64,000 nucleotides of DNA. Origin: Burkholderiaceae bacterium (lineage in GTDB: Bacteria > Pseudomonadota > Gammaproteobacteria > Burkholderiales > Burkholderiaceae_C). Positions 1,059 to 19,225 of the stretch are shown in pieces. Numbering within the stretch: the stretch's first letter is position 1; every line of letters begins with the position of its first letter. Where the stretch lies: assembly GCA_026125795.1 (NCBI GenBank), contig JAHCKM010000002.1:1240001-1304000 (forward strand), read 5' to 3'. The notes under the pieces were generated by a model. It made no database searches. It saw nothing but the letters and a program-made list of their open reading frames with translations, and was not told the origin of the DNA. The translations under genes were made by a program, and so were the position numbers.

Positions 1059-1206
1059 GCCAAACGGGTGATGGACCTCGAGGTCGCTGCGATGCAGCCA
1101 TGACCCTGTCGCTCGCGGTTGCGGTTGATCGAATGTCCGAGTGCGGTGTGACCGCCGAGCAGGGCACGCGAGCCCGCGGGACGCGGGCGCAGAAATAATC
1201 CGCCCC

Positions 1207-4200
1207 ATGGCCGACAGTGCGCTGCTCTTCACCGACGTGGTGGACAGCACGCTGCGCGTGGAGCAGATCGGCGACACGGCTGCGGCACAACTCTGGACCG
1301 AGCACGATCGGCGCGCGCGCGACCTGCTGGCGCGTCATCACGGGCGCGAGATCGATCGCACCGACGGCTTCTTCCTGCTGTTCGACGCACCGCTCGATGC
1401 GCTGCGTTATGCGCTGGACTATCACGCCGCGCTCGCCGAGCTGCAGCTGCGCGCCCGCGTCGGCCTGCACGTGGGCCCGGTCGTGCTGCGCGAGAACCGC
1501 GCGCAGGACATCGCCCGCGGCGCCAAGCCGGTCGAGGTCGAGGGTCTGGCCAAGCCGTTCGCCGCGCGCGTGATGGCGCTCGCGGCGGGCGGGCAGACGC
1601 TGCTCAGCGCCGCGGCGCGCACCGCGCTCGGCGACGCACTGCCCGACGGCACCGTGGTAGAGAGCCATGGGCACTATCGCGTCAAGGGCGTGGAGGCGCC
1701 GATCGAGATCTTCGAGGTCGGCGTGCAGGGTTTCAGCGGTTTCGCGCCGCCGCCCGACACCGACAAGGCGTACCGCGTGGTGCAGCTGGGTGACCACTGG
1801 TCGCCGCTGCGCGCGATCCGCAACAACCTGCCGGGCGAGCCCGATGCCTTCGTCGGCCGCGCGTCGGAGTTGCGCATGGTGGCGCAGCGGCTCGATGCCG
1901 GCGCGCGGCTGCTCACGGTTCTCGGCCCGGGCGGCACCGGCAAGACGCGCCTGGTGCGCCGCTACGGCCTCACCTGGCTGGGCGACTGGCCGGGCGGGGT
2001 CTACTTCTGCGACCTGAGCGACGCCCACTCGATCGACGACATCCACTCCGCGGTGGCGGTCGCGCTGGGCATCCCGCTCGGCCGGGCCGAGCCGGGGCTG
2101 CAGCTCGGGCATGCCATCGCCGGCCGTGGGCGCTGTCTGCTTATCCTCGACAACTTCGAGCAGGTGGTGGAGCACGCGGTGGCGTCGCTCGGCCGCTGGC
2201 TCGGCCGCGCCACCGAGGCCGCGTTCATCGTCACCTCGCGCGCGCGGCTGCAGTTGCCCGGCGAGGCGGTGGTCGCGCTCGACCCGCTGCCGGTGGGCAG
2301 CGATGCGATCGAGCTGTTCGTGCAGCGCGCGCGGGCGCAGCAGGCCGACTTCATGCTGGGCGAGGGCAACCGCGCGGCGGTGGCCGAGGTGGTGCGGCTG
2401 CTCGATGGCCTGCCGCTGGCGATCGAGCTGGCGGCGGCGCGCACGCGCGTGTTGTCGCCGGCGCAACTGGTCGAGCGGCTGAGCGATCGTTTCAGGGTGC
2501 TCGCCGGCGCCCGCGGCGCTGCCGCGCGCCAGGCCACGCTGCGGGCCGCGATCGACTGGTCGTGGAATCTGCTGGCGCCGTGGGAGCAGGCCGCCTTCGC
2601 ACAGTGCTCGGTGTTCGAACACCGCTTCACGCTGCAGGCGGCCGAGCGCGTGCTCGACCTGCGGGCCTGGCCTGACGCACCTGAGACGATCGACGCGATC
2701 CAGGCGCTGGTTGACAAGAGCCTGCTGCGCTCCTGGGTCCCGGCTGAACAGGCGCGCCACGGCATCGAGGAACCGTGTTTCGGCATGCTGCTGAACCTGC
2801 GCGAGTACGCGGCCGAGAAGCTCCCGGCCAGCGGACCCGCGGCGCGTGATGCGGCCGAGCAGCGGCACGAGCGCTACTTTGCCGGCTTTGGCACCGACGA
2901 CGCGATCGAATCGTTGTACCGCCATGGCGGCATCCGCAAGCGGCGCTTGCTCGCGCTCGAGCTCGAGAATCTGGTCGCCGCCTGCCGCCGGGCAGCCGGC
3001 CGCGGCCATGGCGACACCGCGGTGGCCGCCTTCCGCGCGGCGTGGGAGGTGCTGGACTTGCAGGGCCCGTACGCGCTCGGCGCGGCGTTGGGCGACCCGG
3101 TGCTGGCGCTCGATGCCCTCACGCCGCCGCTGCGCGTGAAGGCGTTGTGGACTCGCGCCCAGGCCGCATGGCGCGCCGGACGCATGGACGACGCGGCCGC
3201 AGGGCTCGCGCAGGCGCAGGCGCTTGCGCGCGACTTGCGCGACCGCCGGCACGAGGGCCTGGTGCTGTACAGCCTGGGCAACTTGAACGGCGAGCAGGGC
3301 CGCATGGACGAGGCGCAGCGGTGCTACGAGGCGGCGCTGGCGATCCAGCGCGAGGTCGGCCAGGTTCGTTTGCAGGGCATGATCCTCGCCAACCTCGGCA
3401 ACGTGCACGGCGAGCAGAGCCGCGCCGAGGCGGCGCGGTCGTGCTACGACGCCGCACTCGCGATCCACCGCGAGATCGGCAACCGCAGCAGCGAAGGCAC
3501 AGTCCTCGGCAACTTGGGCAATCTGCTGTGCGACCAGGGTCGCATGGACGAGGCGCGGGCCAGTTACCTGCAGGCCCTGGCGATTGCCCGCGAGGTGGGC
3601 AGCCGCACCCGCGAGGGCAGCGTGCTCGGCAACCTCGGCATCCTCAATTACGAGCAGGGGCGCCTGGATGAAGCGCGGGCGCATCTCGAGGCGGCGCTCG
3701 CGATCCACCGCGAGGTCGGCAACCGGCCGGTCGAGGCGATCGTGCTGGCCAACATCGGCGTGGCGAACCGCGATCAGGGCCGCATGGACGAGGCGCTCGC
3801 CCATCTGGAGGCCGCGCTGGCGATCCACCGCGAAGTCGGCAACCGCCGCGACGAGGGCTTTGTGCTCGGCAACCTCGGCCTGCTGCACGCCGAGCAAGGT
3901 CGGCGCGACGACGCGCAGCAGCACCTGCAAGCCGCCCTGGCGGCGCACCGCGAGGTGGGAAACAGACGTCACGAAGCGGCGGCGATCGGCGCCCTCGCGG
4001 ATCTGCAGGTGCAGCAAGGGCACGTCGCACGAGCCGTGGCGATGCTGGCCGAGGGCGAGTCGATCCTGCGCGAGGTGGCCGACCCGATGGAACTCGGCAA
4101 GCTGCTGTGCATTCGCGGGCATGCGGAGTTGAAGCGCGGCGCCGTGGACGCAGCGCAACGTGCGCTCCACGAGGCCGAGTCGTTGGCCACGACGACCGGC

Positions 4201-4260
4201 GCCGGCCCGGGCTCCGCATTGCGCCGCGCGATCGCCGGGCTGCGCGCAGCGTTGCAGTAG
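1207..4260 (+). CDS. Class III cyclase-domain / NB-ARC-like ATPase / TPR regulator (copy 1)
   Basis: 1017-residue multidomain signalling protein. Residues 1-180 are an adenylate/guanylate cyclase catalytic domain: FTDVVDST supplies the two metal aspartates (D10 is the first), and D53 lies in the TDGFFLLF strand where the family usually has GD. A STAND-type ATPase follows, with Walker A GPGGTGKT (240-247) and Walker B LLILD (D315). The C-terminal third is tetratricopeptide repeats in a strict 40-residue period (about 659-938). The ATG at 1207 is chosen because the cyclase fold begins directly after it; a GTG 22 codons upstream would add low-complexity sequence. Whether the cyclase makes cNMP is uncertain, since these domains often act only as sensors. 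A second protein of the same plan lies at 5504-8842. Confidence 0.88.
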   Translation: MADSALLFTDVVDSTLRVEQIGDTAAAQLWTEHDRRARDLLARHHGREIDRTDGFFLLFDAPLDALRYALDYHAALAELQLRARVGLHVGPVVLRENRAQDIARGAKPVEVEGLAKPFAARVMALAAGGQTLLSAAARTALGDALPDGTVVESHGHYRVKGVEAPIEIFEVGVQGFSGFAPPPDTDKAYRVVQLGDHWSPLRAIRNNLPGEPDAFVGRASELRMVAQRLDAGARLLTVLGPGGTGKTRLVRRYGLTWLGDWPGGVYFCDLSDAHSIDDIHSAVAVALGIPLGRAEPGLQLGHAIAGRGRCLLILDNFEQVVEHAVASLGRWLGRATEAAFIVTSRARLQLPGEAVVALDPLPVGSDAIELFVQRARAQQADFMLGEGNRAAVAEVVRLLDGLPLAIELAAARTRVLSPAQLVERLSDRFRVLAGARGAAARQATLRAAIDWSWNLLAPWEQAAFAQCSVFEHRFTLQAAERVLDLRAWPDAPETIDAIQALVDKSLLRSWVPAEQARHGIEEPCFGMLLNLREYAAEKLPASGPAARDAAEQRHERYFAGFGTDDAIESLYRHGGIRKRRLLALELENLVAACRRAAGRGHGDTAVAAFRAAWEVLDLQGPYALGAALGDPVLALDALTPPLRVKALWTRAQAAWRAGRMDDAAAGLAQAQALARDLRDRRHEGLVLYSLGNLNGEQGRMDEAQRCYEAALAIQREVGQVRLQGMILANLGNVHGEQSRAEAARSCYDAALAIHREIGNRSSEGTVLGNLGNLLCDQGRMDEARASYLQALAIAREVGSRTREGSVLGNLGILNYEQGRLDEARAHLEAALAIHREVGNRPVEAIVLANIGVANRDQGRMDEALAHLEAALAIHREVGNRRDEGFVLGNLGLLHAEQGRRDDAQQHLQAALAAHREVGNRRHEAAAIGALADLQVQQGHVARAVAMLAEGESILREVADPMELGKLLCIRGHAELKRGAVDAAQRALHEAESLATTTGAGPGSALRRAIAGLRAALQ
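3181..4020 (+). repeat. Seven tandem 120-bp units encoding TPRs
   Basis: Units begin at 3181, 3301, 3421, 3541, 3661, 3781 and 3901, with exactly 120 bp between them. Most open with a version of CGCATGGACGAGGCG (RMDEA). Each unit encodes one 40-residue TPR with the recurring words AALAIxRE, VGNR and LGNL. The lack of any length drift shows the repeat is held in register by protein structure. Similarity at DNA level suggests fairly recent unit duplication. Confidence 0.9.
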
Positions 4261-4336
4261 CGGTCGCGCCTCCCTTGGGCGGCTGAAGCGATCGTCGCTC
4301 TGGCCCTCGCACTCGATGGACACAGACACGGTCGAG

Positions 4337-4541
4337 TACAATCCCGGCTTCTTGCCGCGGTTGCTCACCCACGCGGCAGTTGTCGACTGACACGGCCACG
4401 GCATCACACTTGCCGTCTGCCACGCCCCTTTGATCGGGCCCATCCGATCGCCTGCGGCAGTCAGCTTCTCCATTCGGCGAGCTCTTGATTCCGGTCTTCA
4501 GCGACCGGCCCGCCTCTTTTTCGCGCGAGGCGGCCCTGCAC
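4337..4541 (+). promoter_or_regulatory. Promoter -10 box and structured 5' leader of the small protein/IF-1 cassette (copy A)
   Basis: A TACAAT -10 box lies at 4337-4342; no good -35 is visible. Helices that can form: P1 4352-4359 with 4372-4379; P2 CTGAC 4387-4391 with GTCAG 4460-4464, enclosing P3 (CGGC 4399-4402 with GCCG 4412-4415) and P4 (GATCGGG 4432-4438 with TCCGATC 4443-4449); P5 CCGGTC 4491-4496 with GACCGG 4503-4508; P6 CCGCCTC 4510-4516 with GAGGCGG 4527-4533. P6 covers the GAGG at 4527-4530, the best ribosome-binding candidate for the next gene. The same order of helices P1-P5 recurs at 18502-18712. I do not recognise it as a named RNA family. Confidence 0.65.
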
Positions 4542-4784
4542 ATGATCAACAGTCCAGACACCGTCATCGCGGTGGGCCAATTCGTGGTCTCACCGCTCGT
4601 CACCGCCACCGAAAGCGGCCGCTTTGCCGCGTCGGCGGTCATCCGCAGCGGCAGGGGTCACTCCACGCACCACCGCGTGTTGCGCTTCGTGCCGCGTTTC
4701 AACTCGCGCGAAAGCGCGCGGCGCTATGCCGTGGAGCACGGCGTGGCGCACGCCAGCGCGCTCGTCCAACCCCAGGAGAACTGA
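4542..4784 (+). CDS. Conserved small protein upstream of IF-1 (copy A)
   Basis: 80-residue protein of unknown function. It is mostly short predicted strands followed by a helix: core VGQFVVSPLVTATESGRFAA, then THHRVLRFVPRF and SARRYAVEHGVAHA. No catalytic motif, signal peptide or membrane segment is visible. It is closely similar to the product of 18713-18958. The ATG at 4542 is chosen because similarity to the paralogue starts there; an upstream in-frame codon at 4485 lies within the RNA leader. Its TGA stop is followed at once by the TTG start of the IF-1 gene, so the two are probably translationally coupled. From memory, small proteins of this look occur beside cold-shock genes in Betaproteobacteria; I cannot verify that here. 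Confidence 0.8.
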   Translation: MINSPDTVIAVGQFVVSPLVTATESGRFAASAVIRSGRGHSTHHRVLRFVPRFNSRESARRYAVEHGVAHASALVQPQEN

Positions 4785-5051
4785 TTGGCCAAGGAAGACT
4801 TGATCGAGATGCGCGGCAAGGTCGCCGAAGTGCTGCCCGACTCGCGTTTCCGCGTCACGCTCGACAACGGGCACACGCTGGTCGCCTACACCGCGGGCCG
4901 CATGCGCCGCCACTCGATCCGCATCCTCGCGGGAGACCAGGTGTCGCTCGAGCTCTCGCCGTACGACCTGAGCAAGGGCCGTATCACGTTCCGCCACCTC
5001 GACCAGCGCGGCACAGGGCCGCGGCCGCAGGCGCGTCGCAGTTTTCGTTGA
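4785..5051 (+). CDS. infA: Translation initiation factor IF-1 paralogue (copy A)
   Basis: 88-residue S1/OB-fold protein that binds the 30S A site during initiation. It opens with [13 protein letters not shown] and carries the IF-1 core [22 protein letters not shown] and [13 protein letters not shown]. The C-terminus is a basic tail about 15 residues longer than in standard IF-1 (about 72). The start is TTG at 4785, directly after the upstream TGA; an AGGAG lies at 4772-4776 inside the upstream gene. It is not in a ribosomal-protein operon, which argues for an accessory, perhaps cold- or stress-induced, copy. It differs at only a handful of positions from the product of 18959-19225. Confidence 0.92.
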
Positions 5052-5140
5052 GCGGCGCGCGTTCGCGCGTGCTGCTCATTTTCTCGCGTCGCAAGCCGAT
5101 CTCGGCCTCTGTGCACGCATTTCGTTGAAAGGAGCCCTCC

Positions 5141-5461
5141 GTGGGCAACAAACTTTACGTCGGCAACCTCGCCTATTCGATGACCGACGGCTCGCTGCAA
5201 GAGCGCTTTGCCGAGTTCGGCGCCGTGCAATCCGCCAAGGTGATGATGGACCGCGACAGCGGCCGCTCCAAGGGCTTCGGCTTCGTCGAGATGGACACCT
5301 CCGATGCGGCCCAGGCGGCGATCCGCGGCCTCAACGGCAAGATCGTCGAGGGCCGCGACATGGTGGTCAACGAGGCGCGTCCCCGGGAGTCCAACGGCTT
5401 CGGCGGCGGCGAGCGCAGAGACGCCGGTGGTGGCGGCTACCGCGGCGGCTTCCGCCGCTGA
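5141..5461 (+). CDS. Small RRM RNA-binding protein with Gly-rich tail
   Basis: 106-residue single-RRM protein of the bacterial cold-inducible RNA-binding type. RNP2 is LYVGNL (residues 5-10) and RNP1 is KGFGFVEM (44-51), both with the aromatic residues that stack on RNA. After about residue 80 it becomes Gly/Arg-rich (GGGERR, GGGGYRGGFRR), typical of RNA chaperones. Start is GTG at 5141 with AAGGAG about 7 bases upstream. It lies 89 bp after the IF-1 paralogue on the same strand. Proximity suggests a shared role in RNA handling or cold adaptation, which is inference. Confidence 0.93.
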   Translation: MGNKLYVGNLAYSMTDGSLQERFAEFGAVQSAKVMMDRDSGRSKGFGFVEMDTSDAAQAAIRGLNGKIVEGRDMVVNEARPRESNGFGGGERRDAGGGGYRGGFRR

Positions 5462-5503: not shown

Positions 5504-8500
5504 ATGTCCCCCGAGCAGCAGCAGCTCGAAGCGGCGATCACCGCCCTGGAGGGCCTGCGGGCCACCTTGGGCGATACCGCCGTCGAGCCTCTGCTCGCCG
5601 CCGCGCGCGCCAAGCTCGCGGCCCTGCACGGCCCTGCTGAGCCCGAGCCGGCGCAAGCGCTCAAGCAGGTCAGCATCCTGTTCCTCGACGTGGTGGGTTC
5701 CACCACGCTCGGCCAGCAGCTGGATCCCGAGGAGATCAGCGCCGTGATGGACGGTGCGCTGGCGCGTGCGTCCCGGCTGGTCGAGGCGCACCACGGCAAG
5801 GTGCTGCAGTACGCCGGCGACAACTTGCTGGCCGTGTTCGGCGCCGGCGACGTGCGCGAAGACGATGCCGAGCGGGCGGTTCGTTGCGGCCTCGCGTTGC
5901 TGGAGCTCGGCCGCGCGCTCGGCGACGAGGTGCAGGCCAGCCACGGCCACGCGGGCTTCGACGTGCGCGTGGGGATCCATACCGGCGGCGTGCTGCTCGG
6001 CGGCGGTGTCGATGCCGAGGGCACCATCCGCGGCAGCGCGGTCAACATCGCGGCGCGCATGGAGCAGGCCGCGCCGGCCGGCGGGCTGCGCATCAGCCAC
6101 GACACCTATGCGCTGGTGCGCGGCATGTTCGATGTGGAGTCGCCACCGCCGCTGGCGGTCAAGGGCCTCGCCGAGCCGCTGCAAACGCACCTGGTCGTGC
6201 GTGCCAAGCCGCGCTCGTTCCACATCGGCACGCGCGGCATCGAGGGCGTGGCCACGCGCATGGTGGGGCGCGATGCCGAGCTCGGGCTGCTGCAACAAGC
6301 GTTTGAGCGGCTGTACGCCGACGGCCGGTTCGCGATGGTCACCGTCGTCGGCGAGGCCGGCCTCGGCAAGAGCCGGTTGTTGTACGAGTTCGAGGCCTGG
6401 TCCGAGGCGCGACCCGAGAGCTTCTACATCTTTCGCGGCCGTGCCACGCCGCAGACGCAGAGCCAGCCGCTGGGGCTGCTGCGCGACATGCTGGCCTGGC
6501 GATTCCAGATCGCCGACGACGACACGCTCGAGGTGGCGAGGGCCAAGTTCGAGCAGGCCATCGTGCCGTTGTTCGAGCCTGACGATGGCGCCGACCTCGC
6601 GCAGGCGCATGCCCACGTGCTGGGTCACCTGCTCGGCATCGACTGGAGCCACAGCCGCCACGTGAAGGGCATCGTCGACGACCCGCGGCAGATCCGCCAT
6701 CGCGGGCTGCATTCGGCGGCGCTGGTGTTTCGCCGGCTCGCGCAAGCGGGCCGCCTGCCCGTGGTGCTGCAGCTCGAAGACCTTCACTGGGCTGACGAAG
6801 GCACGCTCGACTTCCTGCAGCAGTTGGCGGTGGCGAACGCCGACGTGCCGATGCTGCTGATCGTGCTGACGCGGCCCGAGCTGTTCGAGCGGCGCCCCGG
6901 TTGGGGAGCCGACGTGCACCAGCGCATCGATCTGAAACCGCTGGACGCCGCGGTGAGCCGGCAACTGGCCGACGAACTGCTGAAGAGCCTGTCCGATGCG
7001 CGCAGCGCATTGAGCGAGCTCGTTTCCGCGCGGGCCGAGGGCAACCCGTTCTTCATGGAAGAACTGGTGAAGATGCTGGTCGACCGGGGCGCCATCGCCA
7101 CCGCCGGCGACCAGTGGACGCTGCGCCCCGACAAGTTGCTCGCCACGCAGGTGCCGGCGTCGTTGACCGGGGTGCTGCAAGCGCGCCTCGACGGGCTGCC
7201 GGCGCCCGAGCGGCAGGCGCTGCAATGCGCCAGCGTGATCGGCCCGGTGTTTTGGGATCAGGCGTTGGCCGCGCTCGACGCGCAGGCGCCGGCGGCGCTG
7301 CCCGCGCTGGTGCACCACGGGCTGACGCCGCCACGGCCCAACGCCGCGCTGGAGGGCATGCGCGAGTACGCGTTCAGCCACCAGATCCTGCACGAGGTCA
7401 CCTATGCCACGGTGCTCAAGCGCACCAAGCGTGCACTGCACGCGCGAGCGGCCGCGTGGCTGGCCGGCCTCAGCGGCGCGCGCGCGGGCGACTTTCTCGG
7501 TGCCATCGCCGAGCACCATGAGCTGGCCGGCGACGATGCGCAGGCCTGCGAGTACCTGGCGCGAGCCGCCGAGCACGCCAGGGCGCGCTACGACCACGAC
7601 CTCGCGTTGCGCCACGTGGCCCGCGCGATGTCGCTGCTCGACCACGCCGCCGCGACGCCGGGACCCGATGCGCTCGCGCTGCGCTGGCGGCTGCTCCACG
7701 TGCGCGAGATCGTGCTGAACCTGCTGGGCCAGCGTGCCGAGCAGCAGGAGGCGCTCGAGGGCCTGCGGCAGGTGGCCGACGCGCTGGACGACGACGGCCG
7801 GCGTGCCTATGCCGCACGGCGGCGCAGCTCGCTGGCGATGCGCATGGCCGACCATCGTGCGCAGGAGGCCGAGGCGCGCCGCGCGTTGGCGTTCGCGCAG
7901 CGTGCCGGCGATGTGAGCAACCGGCTCGAGGCGCAACGCCTGCTGGCCGACGCGCTGGCCTCATTGGGCGAGCTGGCAGCCGGCGAGGCGCTGGCCCGCG
8001 ACGGCCTGGCCGAGGCTCGTGCCCACGGCTTGCGCCGCGCCGAGGGGGTGTTCCTCAACGCGCTGTCGTACATCGCGTCGTTGCGCGACGACCAGGTCAC
8101 GGGCCTCGGCCTGGACCTGCAGGATCTGGAGATCTGGCGCGGGCTGGGCGATCTGCAGGGCGAAGCGATCGCGCTGGCCAACGTGGGCGGCGACTGGCTC
8201 TGGTTTGGCGAGCTGGCCCGGGCGCGCCAATGTCTGGAAGGCTCGTTGGCGCTGTATCGCAGCGCGGGTGCGCGGTCCATGGAATGCGGGACGCTGACGG
8301 ACCTGTCGCAGACCCTGCGGCGCCAGGGCGACGCCGCGCAGGCGCTGGCCGTGGCCCGCACGTCGCTCGAGATCGCGCAGCACGTGCATGCGCGCGACTA
8401 CGAAGCGCAGAGCCTCTTGTGCGTCGGCCAGGCCGAGCTGGCGCTGCGCCACCTGCCGGCCGCGGCCGCGGCGTTTGAACGCGCCGCGGCGGTGGCCGCC

Positions 8501-8842
8501 GAGATCGGCCACCGCATGCAGCACGACGCGCTGGCCGGTCGAGCCAGGGCGGCGCTGGCAGCCTCCGACATCGAAGGCGCGATGGCCCTGGTGGAACGGC
8601 TGCTGGCCGTGCTGGATACCGGCGCGCAGGATGGCGCCGATCTCAAGCCGATCCTGCTCACGTGCCACCAGGTGCTGCGCTCGGCGGGCGACCCGCGTGC
8701 CCGCGCAGTGATCGATCGGGCGCACGCCTTGCTGCAGAGCAAGGCCGGCACGATCAACGACGCCGCATTGCGCGAGAGCTTCCTGACGCGGATCGAGGAG
8801 CATCGCGAGATCGTTGCGGCGTGGCAGGGCGAGCCGGGTTAG
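5504..8842 (+). CDS. Class III cyclase-domain / AAA ATPase / TPR-like regulator (copy 2)
   Basis: 1112-residue protein. After about 50 residues comes an adenylate/guanylate cyclase domain with the metal-binding D62 in FLDVVGST, the second aspartate D106 in YAGDN, and GSAVNIAARME, all close to consensus, so this copy looks catalytically competent. An AAA-type ATPase follows: Walker A GEAGLGKS (283-290) and Walker B LQLEDLHW (D426). Residues beyond about 640 are a helical TPR-like scaffold without the strict 40-residue period of the protein at 1207-4260. It begins 42 bp after the RRM gene. The last 89 bp overlap a small convergent gene. The class is common in Actinobacteria and Proteobacteria, but ligands are mostly unknown. 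Confidence 0.9.
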   Translation: MSPEQQQLEAAITALEGLRATLGDTAVEPLLAAARAKLAALHGPAEPEPAQALKQVSILFLDVVGSTTLGQQLDPEEISAVMDGALARASRLVEAHHGKVLQYAGDNLLAVFGAGDVREDDAERAVRCGLALLELGRALGDEVQASHGHAGFDVRVGIHTGGVLLGGGVDAEGTIRGSAVNIAARMEQAAPAGGLRISHDTYALVRGMFDVESPPPLAVKGLAEPLQTHLVVRAKPRSFHIGTRGIEGVATRMVGRDAELGLLQQAFERLYADGRFAMVTVVGEAGLGKSRLLYEFEAWSEARPESFYIFRGRATPQTQSQPLGLLRDMLAWRFQIADDDTLEVARAKFEQAIVPLFEPDDGADLAQAHAHVLGHLLGIDWSHSRHVKGIVDDPRQIRHRGLHSAALVFRRLAQAGRLPVVLQLEDLHWADEGTLDFLQQLAVANADVPMLLIVLTRPELFERRPGWGADVHQRIDLKPLDAAVSRQLADELLKSLSDARSALSELVSARAEGNPFFMEELVKMLVDRGAIATAGDQWTLRPDKLLATQVPASLTGVLQARLDGLPAPERQALQCASVIGPVFWDQALAALDAQAPAALPALVHHGLTPPRPNAALEGMREYAFSHQILHEVTYATVLKRTKRALHARAAAWLAGLSGARAGDFLGAIAEHHELAGDDAQACEYLARAAEHARARYDHDLALRHVARAMSLLDHAAATPGPDALALRWRLLHVREIVLNLLGQRAEQQEALEGLRQVADALDDDGRRAYAARRRSSLAMRMADHRAQEAEARRALAFAQRAGDVSNRLEAQRLLADALASLGELAAGEALARDGLAEARAHGLRRAEGVFLNALSYIASLRDDQVTGLGLDLQDLEIWRGLGDLQGEAIALANVGGDWLWFGELARARQCLEGSLALYRSAGARSMECGTLTDLSQTLRRQGDAAQALAVARTSLEIAQHVHARDYEAQSLLCVGQAELALRHLPAAAAAFERAAAVAAEIGHRMQHDALAGRARAALAASDIEGAMALVERLLAVLDTGAQDGADLKPILLTCHQVLRSAGDPRARAVIDRAHALLQSKAGTINDAALRESFLTRIEEHREIVAAWQGEPG

Positions 8843-18501: not shown

Positions 18502-18712
18502 TACAATGCGCCCATCTTGTCGCGGTTGCTCACCCACGCGGCAACCGTCGACTGACACGGCCGCGGCATCACACTTGCCGCCGCCAAGCGCCACGATCGG
18601 GCCTGACCCGATCCCTTCGCGGCAGTCAGCTTCCTTCAGCGGCGAGCTCCATTCCGGTCGGCGGATCGTTCCGTTCTGACCGGCCATCGTGCTGCCACAC
18701 GGCAGCTTTCAA
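18502..18712 (+). promoter_or_regulatory. Promoter -10 box and structured 5' leader (copy B)
   Basis: TACAAT at 18502-18507 lies the same distance from the first helix as in copy A. Helices: P1 18517-18524 with 18537-18544; P2 CTGAC 18552-18556 with GTCAG 18625-18629, enclosing P3 (18564-18567 with 18577-18580) and P4 (GATCGGG 18595-18601 with CCCGATC 18607-18613); P5 CCGGTC 18654-18659 with GACCGG 18678-18683; and a start-proximal hairpin GCTGCC 18691-18696 with GGCAGC 18701-18706. Compared with 4337-4541, P1 and P4 change a base on one side while keeping the pair (for example C-G versus T-G in P1, G-T versus G-C in P4). Loop and linker lengths vary, mainly around P5. Confidence 0.65.
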
Positions 18713-18958
18713 ATGATCACCACCCACGAAACTTCCATCGTGGTGGGCAAATTCGTTGTCTCACCACTTGTCACCGCCACCGACTCCGGCCGTTATGCCG
18801 CGTCCGCGGTCATCTGCAGCGGCCAGGGCCGCGGCACGCACCACCGTGTGCTGCGCTTCGTGCCGCGTTTCGATTCACACGACAGCGCGCGGCGCTATGC
18901 CGTGGACCACGGCGTGGCCCACGCCTCGGCGCTGCATCAACAACGACAGGAGAACTGA
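18713..18958 (+). CDS. Conserved small protein upstream of IF-1 (copy B)
   Basis: 81 residues, unknown function, clearly paralogous to 4542-4784: shares VVSPLVTAT, GRYAASAVI, THHRVLRFVPRF, SARRYAV and GVAHASAL. Differences cluster in the first eight residues and the C-terminal end. No motif or transmembrane segment. ATG at 18713 lies 6 bases after a stable hairpin; no strong ribosome-binding site is visible. The stop is followed immediately by the TTG start of the IF-1 gene. Confidence 0.8.
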   Translation: MITTHETSIVVGKFVVSPLVTATDSGRYAASAVICSGQGRGTHHRVLRFVPRFDSHDSARRYAVDHGVAHASALHQQRQEN

Positions 18959-19225
18959 TTGGCCAAAGAAGACTTGATCGAGATGCGCGGCAAGGTCGAC
19001 GAGGTGCTGCCCGACTCGCGTTTTCGCGTCACCCTCGACAACGGGCACTCGCTGGTCGCGTACACGGCGGGGCGCATGCGCAGGCACTCGATCCGCATCC
19101 TGGCGGGCGACCAGGTGTCGCTGGAGTTGTCCCCGTACGACCTGTCCAAGGGCCGCATCACGTTCCGCCACCTCGAGCAGCGCGCCGCCGGTCCGCGGCC
19201 ACCGGCGCGGCGCAACTTCCGTTGA
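18959..19225 (+). CDS. infA: Translation initiation factor IF-1 paralogue (copy B)
   Basis: 88 residues, nearly identical to the product of 4785-5051; changes include A14D, T31S and a few in the basic tail. The OB-fold core ([40 protein letters not shown]) is intact. The TTG at 18959 touches the upstream stop, with AGGAG about 8 bases before. Unlike copy A, no RRM gene follows; the next gene is convergent. Neither copy is near ribosomal protein genes, so the genome should also hold a standard infA elsewhere. Confidence 0.92.

Follow-up and report, generated by a model that had tools for sequence, protein, structure and literature searches.

An apparently uncatalogued structured leader RNA that probably tunes production of an accessory initiation factor and RNA-binding proteins in Burkholderiales, perhaps in the cold

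INTRODUCTION

The leader of the Escherichia coli cspA mRNA is described as adopting two folds, one at 37 °C and the other at 10 °C (PMC4166951). In Cupriavidus metallidurans a second IF-1 and a second housekeeping sigma factor, infA2 and rpoD2, are reported on CHR2 (PMC2864759). Among the RRM proteins described in cyanobacteria, Rbp1 is required for growth at 15 °C, and another, Rbp3, has a role in salt tolerance and not in cold (PMC9333190). To these closest known systems we add two further entries, the protein family DUF6566 (PF20204) and CV_2116 (PDB 2kon).

The locus described here lies in a window of 64,000 nucleotides of DNA from a Burkholderiaceae bacterium, and it resembles these systems in part. 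Like that of cspA, it has a long structured 5′ leader on genes for RNA-binding proteins (an RRM protein and IF-1, by family), in the cspA case a gene for an RNA-binding stress protein. It differs in that the leader precedes a small protein (SP), IF-1, RRM or rpoD2 genes, and in that it matches no Rfam family at the gathering score. In C. metallidurans, too, IF-1 and the sigma factor are present in a second copy, whereas the passage describing that organism (PMC2864759) names no shared leader RNA, SP or RRM partner. The Burkholderiales RRM protein and Rbp1 are both short single-RRM proteins with a glycine-rich tail; Rbp3 differs from such a cold-linked role in serving salt tolerance (PMC9333190).

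RESULTS

Two copies of a cassette

The preliminary description of this DNA proposed that a cassette at 4337–5051 recurs at 18502–19225 with its parts in the same order and spacing, and this is indeed so. Both copies (A and B respectively, both on the forward strand) comprise a −10 box, a folded leader of ∼140 nt, an SP gene and a gene for an IF-1 paralogue (infA2), and the two units are clearly a duplication. Identity between the copies is 82% for the leaders (171 aligned bases), 68% for the SPs (92 residues) and 91% for the IF-1 paralogues (88 residues). The −10 box is TACAAT in each case (4337–4342 and 18502–18507), followed, as had been noted, by 9 bases and then by the first helix, P1, beginning at 4352 and 18517.

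In copy A the P1 hairpin (4352–4379) has arms at 4352–4359 and 4372–4379 and a 12-nt loop; its counterpart in copy B occupies 18517–18544. P2 is formed by CUGAC (4387–4391) and GUCAG (4460–4464), spanning 4387–4464 in copy A and 18552–18629 in copy B. The span is fixed as had been described, but the 78 nt include the arms, and P2 encloses 68 nt. Within it are the hairpins P3 (4398–4416 in copy A) and P4 (4432–4449 in copy A, 18595–18613 in copy B). Further downstream are a hairpin P5 (CCGGUC..GACCGG at 4491–4508; 18654–18683 in copy B), recognized from the sequence and lying outside our models, with its covariation left uncounted, and another just ahead of the SP start codon (4508–4536 and 18689–18706). 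Pair-preserving differences between the copies had been claimed for P1 and P4. Those in P1 stand (C-G to U-G, and U-G to U-A), while the arms of P4 differ by a single extra G-C pair. In our numbering there is a pair-preserving change of A-U to G-C in P3, and the mismatch may reflect a different numbering of the helices.

The open reading frame list starts SP at TTG 4485 and GTG 18689. We rejected both as too early, since the conserved protein begins at ATG 4542 and ATG 18713, giving genes at 4542–4784 (80 aa) and 18713–18958 (81 aa). The untranslated leader would therefore be ∼195–200 nt if transcription begins just after the −10 box, a start point suggested solely by the distance from that box to P1. 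IF-1 follows at 4785–5051 and 18959–19225, and in both copies it starts with TTG directly after the SP stop codon (TGA-TTG). After IF-1 of copy A there is a terminator-like hairpin with a T run (5049–5078; two overlapping sites, against 0.7 expected), and then a third gene at 5141–5461 encoding an RRM RNA-binding protein (PF00076, 3.2e-22; NF058537, 1e-32). Copy B has no RRM gene, and a second RRM gene of this genome lies elsewhere (G000:C4:393445-393654). Copy A is flanked by two very large genes (1141–4260 and 5504–8842). Both encode TPR repeats and an AAA domain, and one of them a nucleotide-cyclase domain as well.

The leader has a conserved fold supported by covariation

Two copies alone are little proof of a fold, and we have therefore judged it on 69 related leaders. 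The alignment (A6) contains 69 matches out of 71 loci, 67 of them distinct; two loci (L019 and L255) were left out on failing an E value of 0.003, and the doubtful match L198 discussed below is also not in it. A6 includes close relatives, so its counts are of non-independent events. Like its predecessors A4 and A5 it was fitted to the leader structure, which favors P1–P4 but not the pseudoknot discussed below, the strands of which enter as sequence only. In A6 88.5% of cells are paired, compared with 32–49% for control structures slid along the alignment, and 28 of the 32 pairs have changed on both sides, including all seven model pairs of P1. None of 500 shuffled alignments reached any of the five measures used.

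Since shuffling ignores relatedness, we added a null in which columns evolved independently, with the same number of changes, along a FastTree tree built from the same alignment as the covariation tests. Nine of the 31 testable structure pairs then have E < 0.05, located in P1, P3 and P4. The seven highest scores of all 8385 column pairs belong to structure pairs, of which only two have E < 0.05 when every column pair is counted as a test. For P1, P3 and P4 few if any of the 1000 null runs reach the observed pairing or the observed number of compensatory cells. The pairing of P2 is also above the null, but its compensatory cells are not (68 of 1000 runs were as high); its sequence varies little across A6.

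The covariation in a wider alignment on which the preliminary description had made its reading depend is thus present by both the shuffled and the tree-based nulls. These data show a conserved RNA of ∼140 nt, in which a P1 hairpin directly behind the −10 box is followed by a domain that P2 closes and that contains P3 and P4. The leader RNA itself is well supported. It is highly improbable that the block is not an RNA element at all, and is instead conserved promoter DNA or leftover homology of duplicated operons. The −10 box does fall within the conserved block, and the window copies are clearly duplicated, but the compensatory changes seen across genera in P1, P3 and P4 exceed the tree nulls, which neither duplication nor DNA binding would produce.

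The leader had also not been recognized as a described RNA family. On searching Rfam 15 we obtained no match at the gathering score for any of the 4227 families in the window, and none in six relative loci. Rfam holds a cspA family, and it too gave no match at that score in the window or those six loci. The best sub-threshold match over 4300–5150 was Atu_Ti4, on the opposite strand, at 20.4 bits against 40.

Probable pseudoknot pairing of the P1 loop with the leader's 3′ end

The P1 loop includes GCUCACC (4363–4369 in copy A, 18528–18534 in copy B), and a sequence complementary to it, GGCGAGC, lies at the 3′ end of the conserved block (4476–4482 and 18641–18647). The preliminary description had missed this pairing. 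At least six of the seven pairs can form in 65 of the 69 leaders, and in 65 of the 67 distinct leaders no other stretch downstream of P1 is a better complement than this one; the background rate of a six-of-seven complement at other positions is 0.5%. Variants preserve the pairing, as in GCUUGCC/GGCAAGC, GCUCUCC/GGAGAGC, GCUUGCU/AGCAAGC and ACUCGCC/GGCGAGU.

None of 500 shuffles reached any of the five measures for the pseudoknot. Under the tree-based test no single pair passes (the best has E = 0.054), while the compensatory cells taken together are above the null (3 of 1000 runs as high). For the seven pairs together the paired fraction does not exceed the null (597 of 1000 runs reached it), because the middle pair (columns 28/240) is usually non-standard, being unpaired in 46 of 67 leaders. 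Dropping that pair, a choice made post hoc once it was found mostly unpaired, raises the paired fraction above the null (0 of 1000 as high). In addition, loci on the megaplasmids of Aquabacterium olei and Ideonella dechloratans, used in none of our models, have GCUUACC/GGCAAGC at the expected place. Their leader matches score 22.4 and 16.5 bits respectively, below the whole-genome noise level, and are counted on position alone. Most of the evidence is thus complementarity, and the covariation is modest. We consider it very probable, if not proven, that the pseudoknot forms.

Distribution of the leader

Two covariance models, both trained on the window copies and their relatives, were used in searches. 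The first (R1), made from nine leaders without the pseudoknot, was applied to 100 and a further 29 loci, almost all of which had been collected as the surroundings of SP genes, and revealed additional leaders directly upstream of SP in further genera. The second (R2), made from 19 leaders, was run on whole genomes, with E ≤ 0.01 in the family. It found the leader in 57 of 399 family genomes and 32 of 141 genera; the other 342 genomes gave no match with a search whose filters lose weak matches. Within the same genus, the genome G005, which is 99% complete, gave neither a leader nor an SP match.

In the order, five of 399 genomes matched: that of the window, another family member (G218), two genomes from two other families (G536, where SP and IF-1 follow, and G436, where SP, IF-1 and RRM follow), and G547, a false match inside an open frame. 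At the level of the class six of 185 genomes, including that of the window, matched at E ≤ 0.1. The other five matches are weak, the best reaching 30.6 bits, and we rejected them, as four (L294–L297) fall within a long open frame on the strand that was matched and the fifth (L298, 24.5 bits) in a frame of 157 codons. Two further matches were treated as false positives, L198 (32.9 bits), antisense in a long open frame resembling a chemoreceptor, and L293 (30.5 bits), which like L294 (30.6 bits) is in a long open frame on its own strand. From L198, L293 and L294 we place the whole-genome noise of R2 at ∼31–33 bits. Two matches at 31.4–31.6 bits (L194 and L195) were retained because IF-1 follows. 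Five weak R1 matches elsewhere in the window's genome (E = 0.17–4.5) were taken as chance, and for two of these (L142 and L143) no IF-1, SP or RRM was seen in the lists of open reading frames.

Nine of 80 named loci found via the window IF-1 have a leader match above 31 bits, and named carriers include Curvibacter sp. PAE-UM, Inhella proteolytica, Hylemonella gracilis and Comamonadaceae bacterium 2PF. There was no match in phages, and we found no report of the leader or its expression in the open-access literature, subscription papers being outside that coverage.

SP occurs in 159 of the 299 family genomes searched for it, and 120 of 140 SP loci (repeats of the same place being counted) have no R1 leader. 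Leaders beyond R1 were found at L019, L098 and L117 using R2, and at L023 by eye only. By eye, SP lies directly behind a cspA-like gene at some leaderless loci (L012 and L015).

The proteins of the cassette

The two IF-1 paralogues of the window are secure members of their family, scoring 81.4 and 80.0 bits against PF01176 (cut-off 30.2; E = 3.5e-23 and 9.6e-23) and 104.2 and 102.3 bits against TIGR00008 (cut-off 61.15; 2.6e-30 for copy A). A third infA elsewhere in the genome is diverged, with 53% identity, and the window IF-1s are therefore accessory copies.

For SP, searched as its longer open reading frame, neither Pfam nor NCBIfam gave a match at E ≤ 1. In particular DUF6566 gives no match to the window SPs at E ≤ 1, and its gathering score is not reached; it matches weakly five of 23 members of the A2 set, with a best E of 0.026. 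Comparison with solved structures by sequence gave nothing below E = 0.35. The predicted fold is β-β-β-α (pLDDT 88) and weakly resembles Pur-α (Foldseek E = 0.15), which is a nucleic-acid-binding fold.

The genes behind the leader vary

The whole-genome search of the family with R2 provided 60 leader places for which we tallied the genes that follow. SP, IF-1 and RRM all follow at 36, IF-1 and RRM at six, SP and IF-1 at four, RRM alone at four, IF-1 alone at three (all in one genus) and SP and RRM at one, so that 54 of the 60 lead into at least one of the three. Six lead into none of them. At one of these (L168) the leader lies directly before a sigma-70 gene, and at a place outside the six (L182) it is followed by RRM and then by a sigma-70 gene; the genomes concerned (G095 and G171) have two rpoD-like sigma-70 genes each, one of them behind the leader. 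At three more (L188, L189 and L193, all of genus g31) the leader precedes a small protein with a LLATVDLLKRRRAA motif and then a trypsin-like protein, the second protein of L188 matching Trypsin_2 and those of L189 and L193 resembling it. The remaining two are L185, truncated by a contig end, and L198, which is probably false. On the megaplasmids of A. olei and I. dechloratans, SP lies before infA and an RNA-binding protein gene. SP there (L308 1501–1680 and L309 1501–1710) is absent from the gene table, which is incomplete; the original record may list it.

The RNA is thus the constant part, and the product varies. The preliminary description read the element as an RNA leader controlling an accessory IF-1. 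A structured and probably cis-acting leader is borne out by our analysis, but control specific to IF-1 is not, since the leader also precedes RRM alone, a second rpoD and an unrelated pair of proteins.

The main rival to the reading that we favor below is a feedback leader, to which the RRM protein, IF-1 or SP would bind and repress or protect its own mRNA, the other units being targets in trans. The foremost candidate is the RRM protein, which would affect the other units in trans. The concentration of leader places on SP, IF-1 or RRM would suit such a scheme, as would the weak likeness of the predicted SP fold to Pur-α. Yet the leader persists in the absence of any one of SP, IF-1 and RRM, so no single product is its constant partner, although one may act in trans, and it also occurs before rpoD or the unrelated pair. 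Moreover in two genomes (G032 and G007) it lies on RRM with none matched at their SP-IF1 loci (L008 and L017). Overall we regard feedback as unlikely, while taking it seriously.

Promoter and translation start sites

A −10-like hexamer was found in a 20-nt window before P1 in 68 of the 69 A6 leaders, the 69th being cut by a contig end. Neither a −35 consensus nor a full sigma-70 match was found. Given the covariation and the position behind the −10 box, a cis-acting mRNA leader is by far the likeliest reading of the element.

A scan for terminators between the leader and SP found nothing in either window copy. The 3′ end of the leader lies 64–143 nt upstream of the SP start, so that direct masking of a ribosome site by the leader is not visible. 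We then compared the start sites of the three genes at leader loci, SP starts being taken as the nearest ATG, by which other start codons may be missed. Shine–Dalgarno-like pairing (ΔG ≤ −4.5 kcal/mol) is present for only six of 37 SP genes, compared with 44 of 46 for IF-1 and 11 of 45 for RRM. A 30-nt window beginning at −35 is more folded than its shuffles for SP (mean z = −1.48, n = 37) but not for IF-1 (+0.27, n = 43) or RRM (+0.25, n = 44), these two means being over all such genes behind leaders and not first genes only. RRM has its own dip farther upstream, with mean z = −1.15 at −50. Together the folding and the Shine–Dalgarno counts indicate that a hairpin tends to occupy the Shine–Dalgarno place of SP, a trend over 37 other leader loci, in addition to the hairpins described above for the window copies. 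A masked Shine–Dalgarno sequence or a terminator as a common switch was looked for in the window copies and rejected, with SP mostly having no Shine–Dalgarno sequence.

Such a hairpin might be thought to act as a heat-type RNA thermometer, masking the ribosome site of the first gene and melting in the warm. At many leader loci it ends a few bases upstream of the SP start, and that of copy A contains GAGG. Yet with so few SP genes having a Shine–Dalgarno sequence there is mostly nothing to mask, many of the stems are rich in G + C, the covarying part of the RNA lies upstream, and the starts of IF-1 and RRM have no such hairpin at that place. We consider a thermometer of this kind very unlikely.

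We find it somewhat easier to imagine, but still improbable, that the RNA is a riboswitch for a metabolite or an ion, with a ligand pocket at the junction of P1, P2 and the pseudoknot. A conserved covarying fold in a 5′ leader is what we observe, three unpaired columns of A6 (48, 212 and 213) are conserved as G at 95–98%, and a probable pseudoknot and use before different genes would also be in keeping with a riboswitch. Against this, the genes have no pathway in common that would hint at a ligand, and no common expression platform was seen, given the start sites above and the terminator scan of the two window copies.

DISCUSSION

Our best explanation of these observations, which we hold tentatively, is a common cis-acting control of these units by a cold-responsive leader resembling that of cspA. 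The leader would provide one post-transcriptional control for varied units, in place of feedback from a single constant product. It would switch between the pseudoknotted fold and an alternative one in response to low temperature, or to the RNA chaperones that build up in the cold, and the change of fold would alter the stability of the mRNA and the entry of ribosomes at the first gene. Where that gene is SP, there would mostly be a hairpin in place of a Shine–Dalgarno sequence, and translation of IF-1 would follow through coupling to the SP stop codon together with its own Shine–Dalgarno sequence.

The gene content and the cspA precedent point to a cold shock-like or general stress signal; temperature as that signal is a guess from the gene content. 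A fuller version, in which this class of pseudoknotted leader RNAs defines a Burkholderiales regulon that turns on a second initiation set (the IF-1 paralogue and a second RpoD) and RNA chaperones (RRM and SP) in cold or related stress, with SP starting at a hairpin, is possible but doubtful.

What is well supported is a candidate RNA family that has a clear consensus, probably includes a pseudoknot and has no match in Rfam. It is apparently uncatalogued, and it probably tunes the production of an accessory initiation factor and RNA-binding proteins, perhaps in the cold. Shared use of the leader connects RRM proteins with the accessory IF-1 genes found in Burkholderiales, and in two genomes a second sigma-70 gene is connected with them as well. 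The purpose of the second IF-1 thereby becomes testable through one shared control element.
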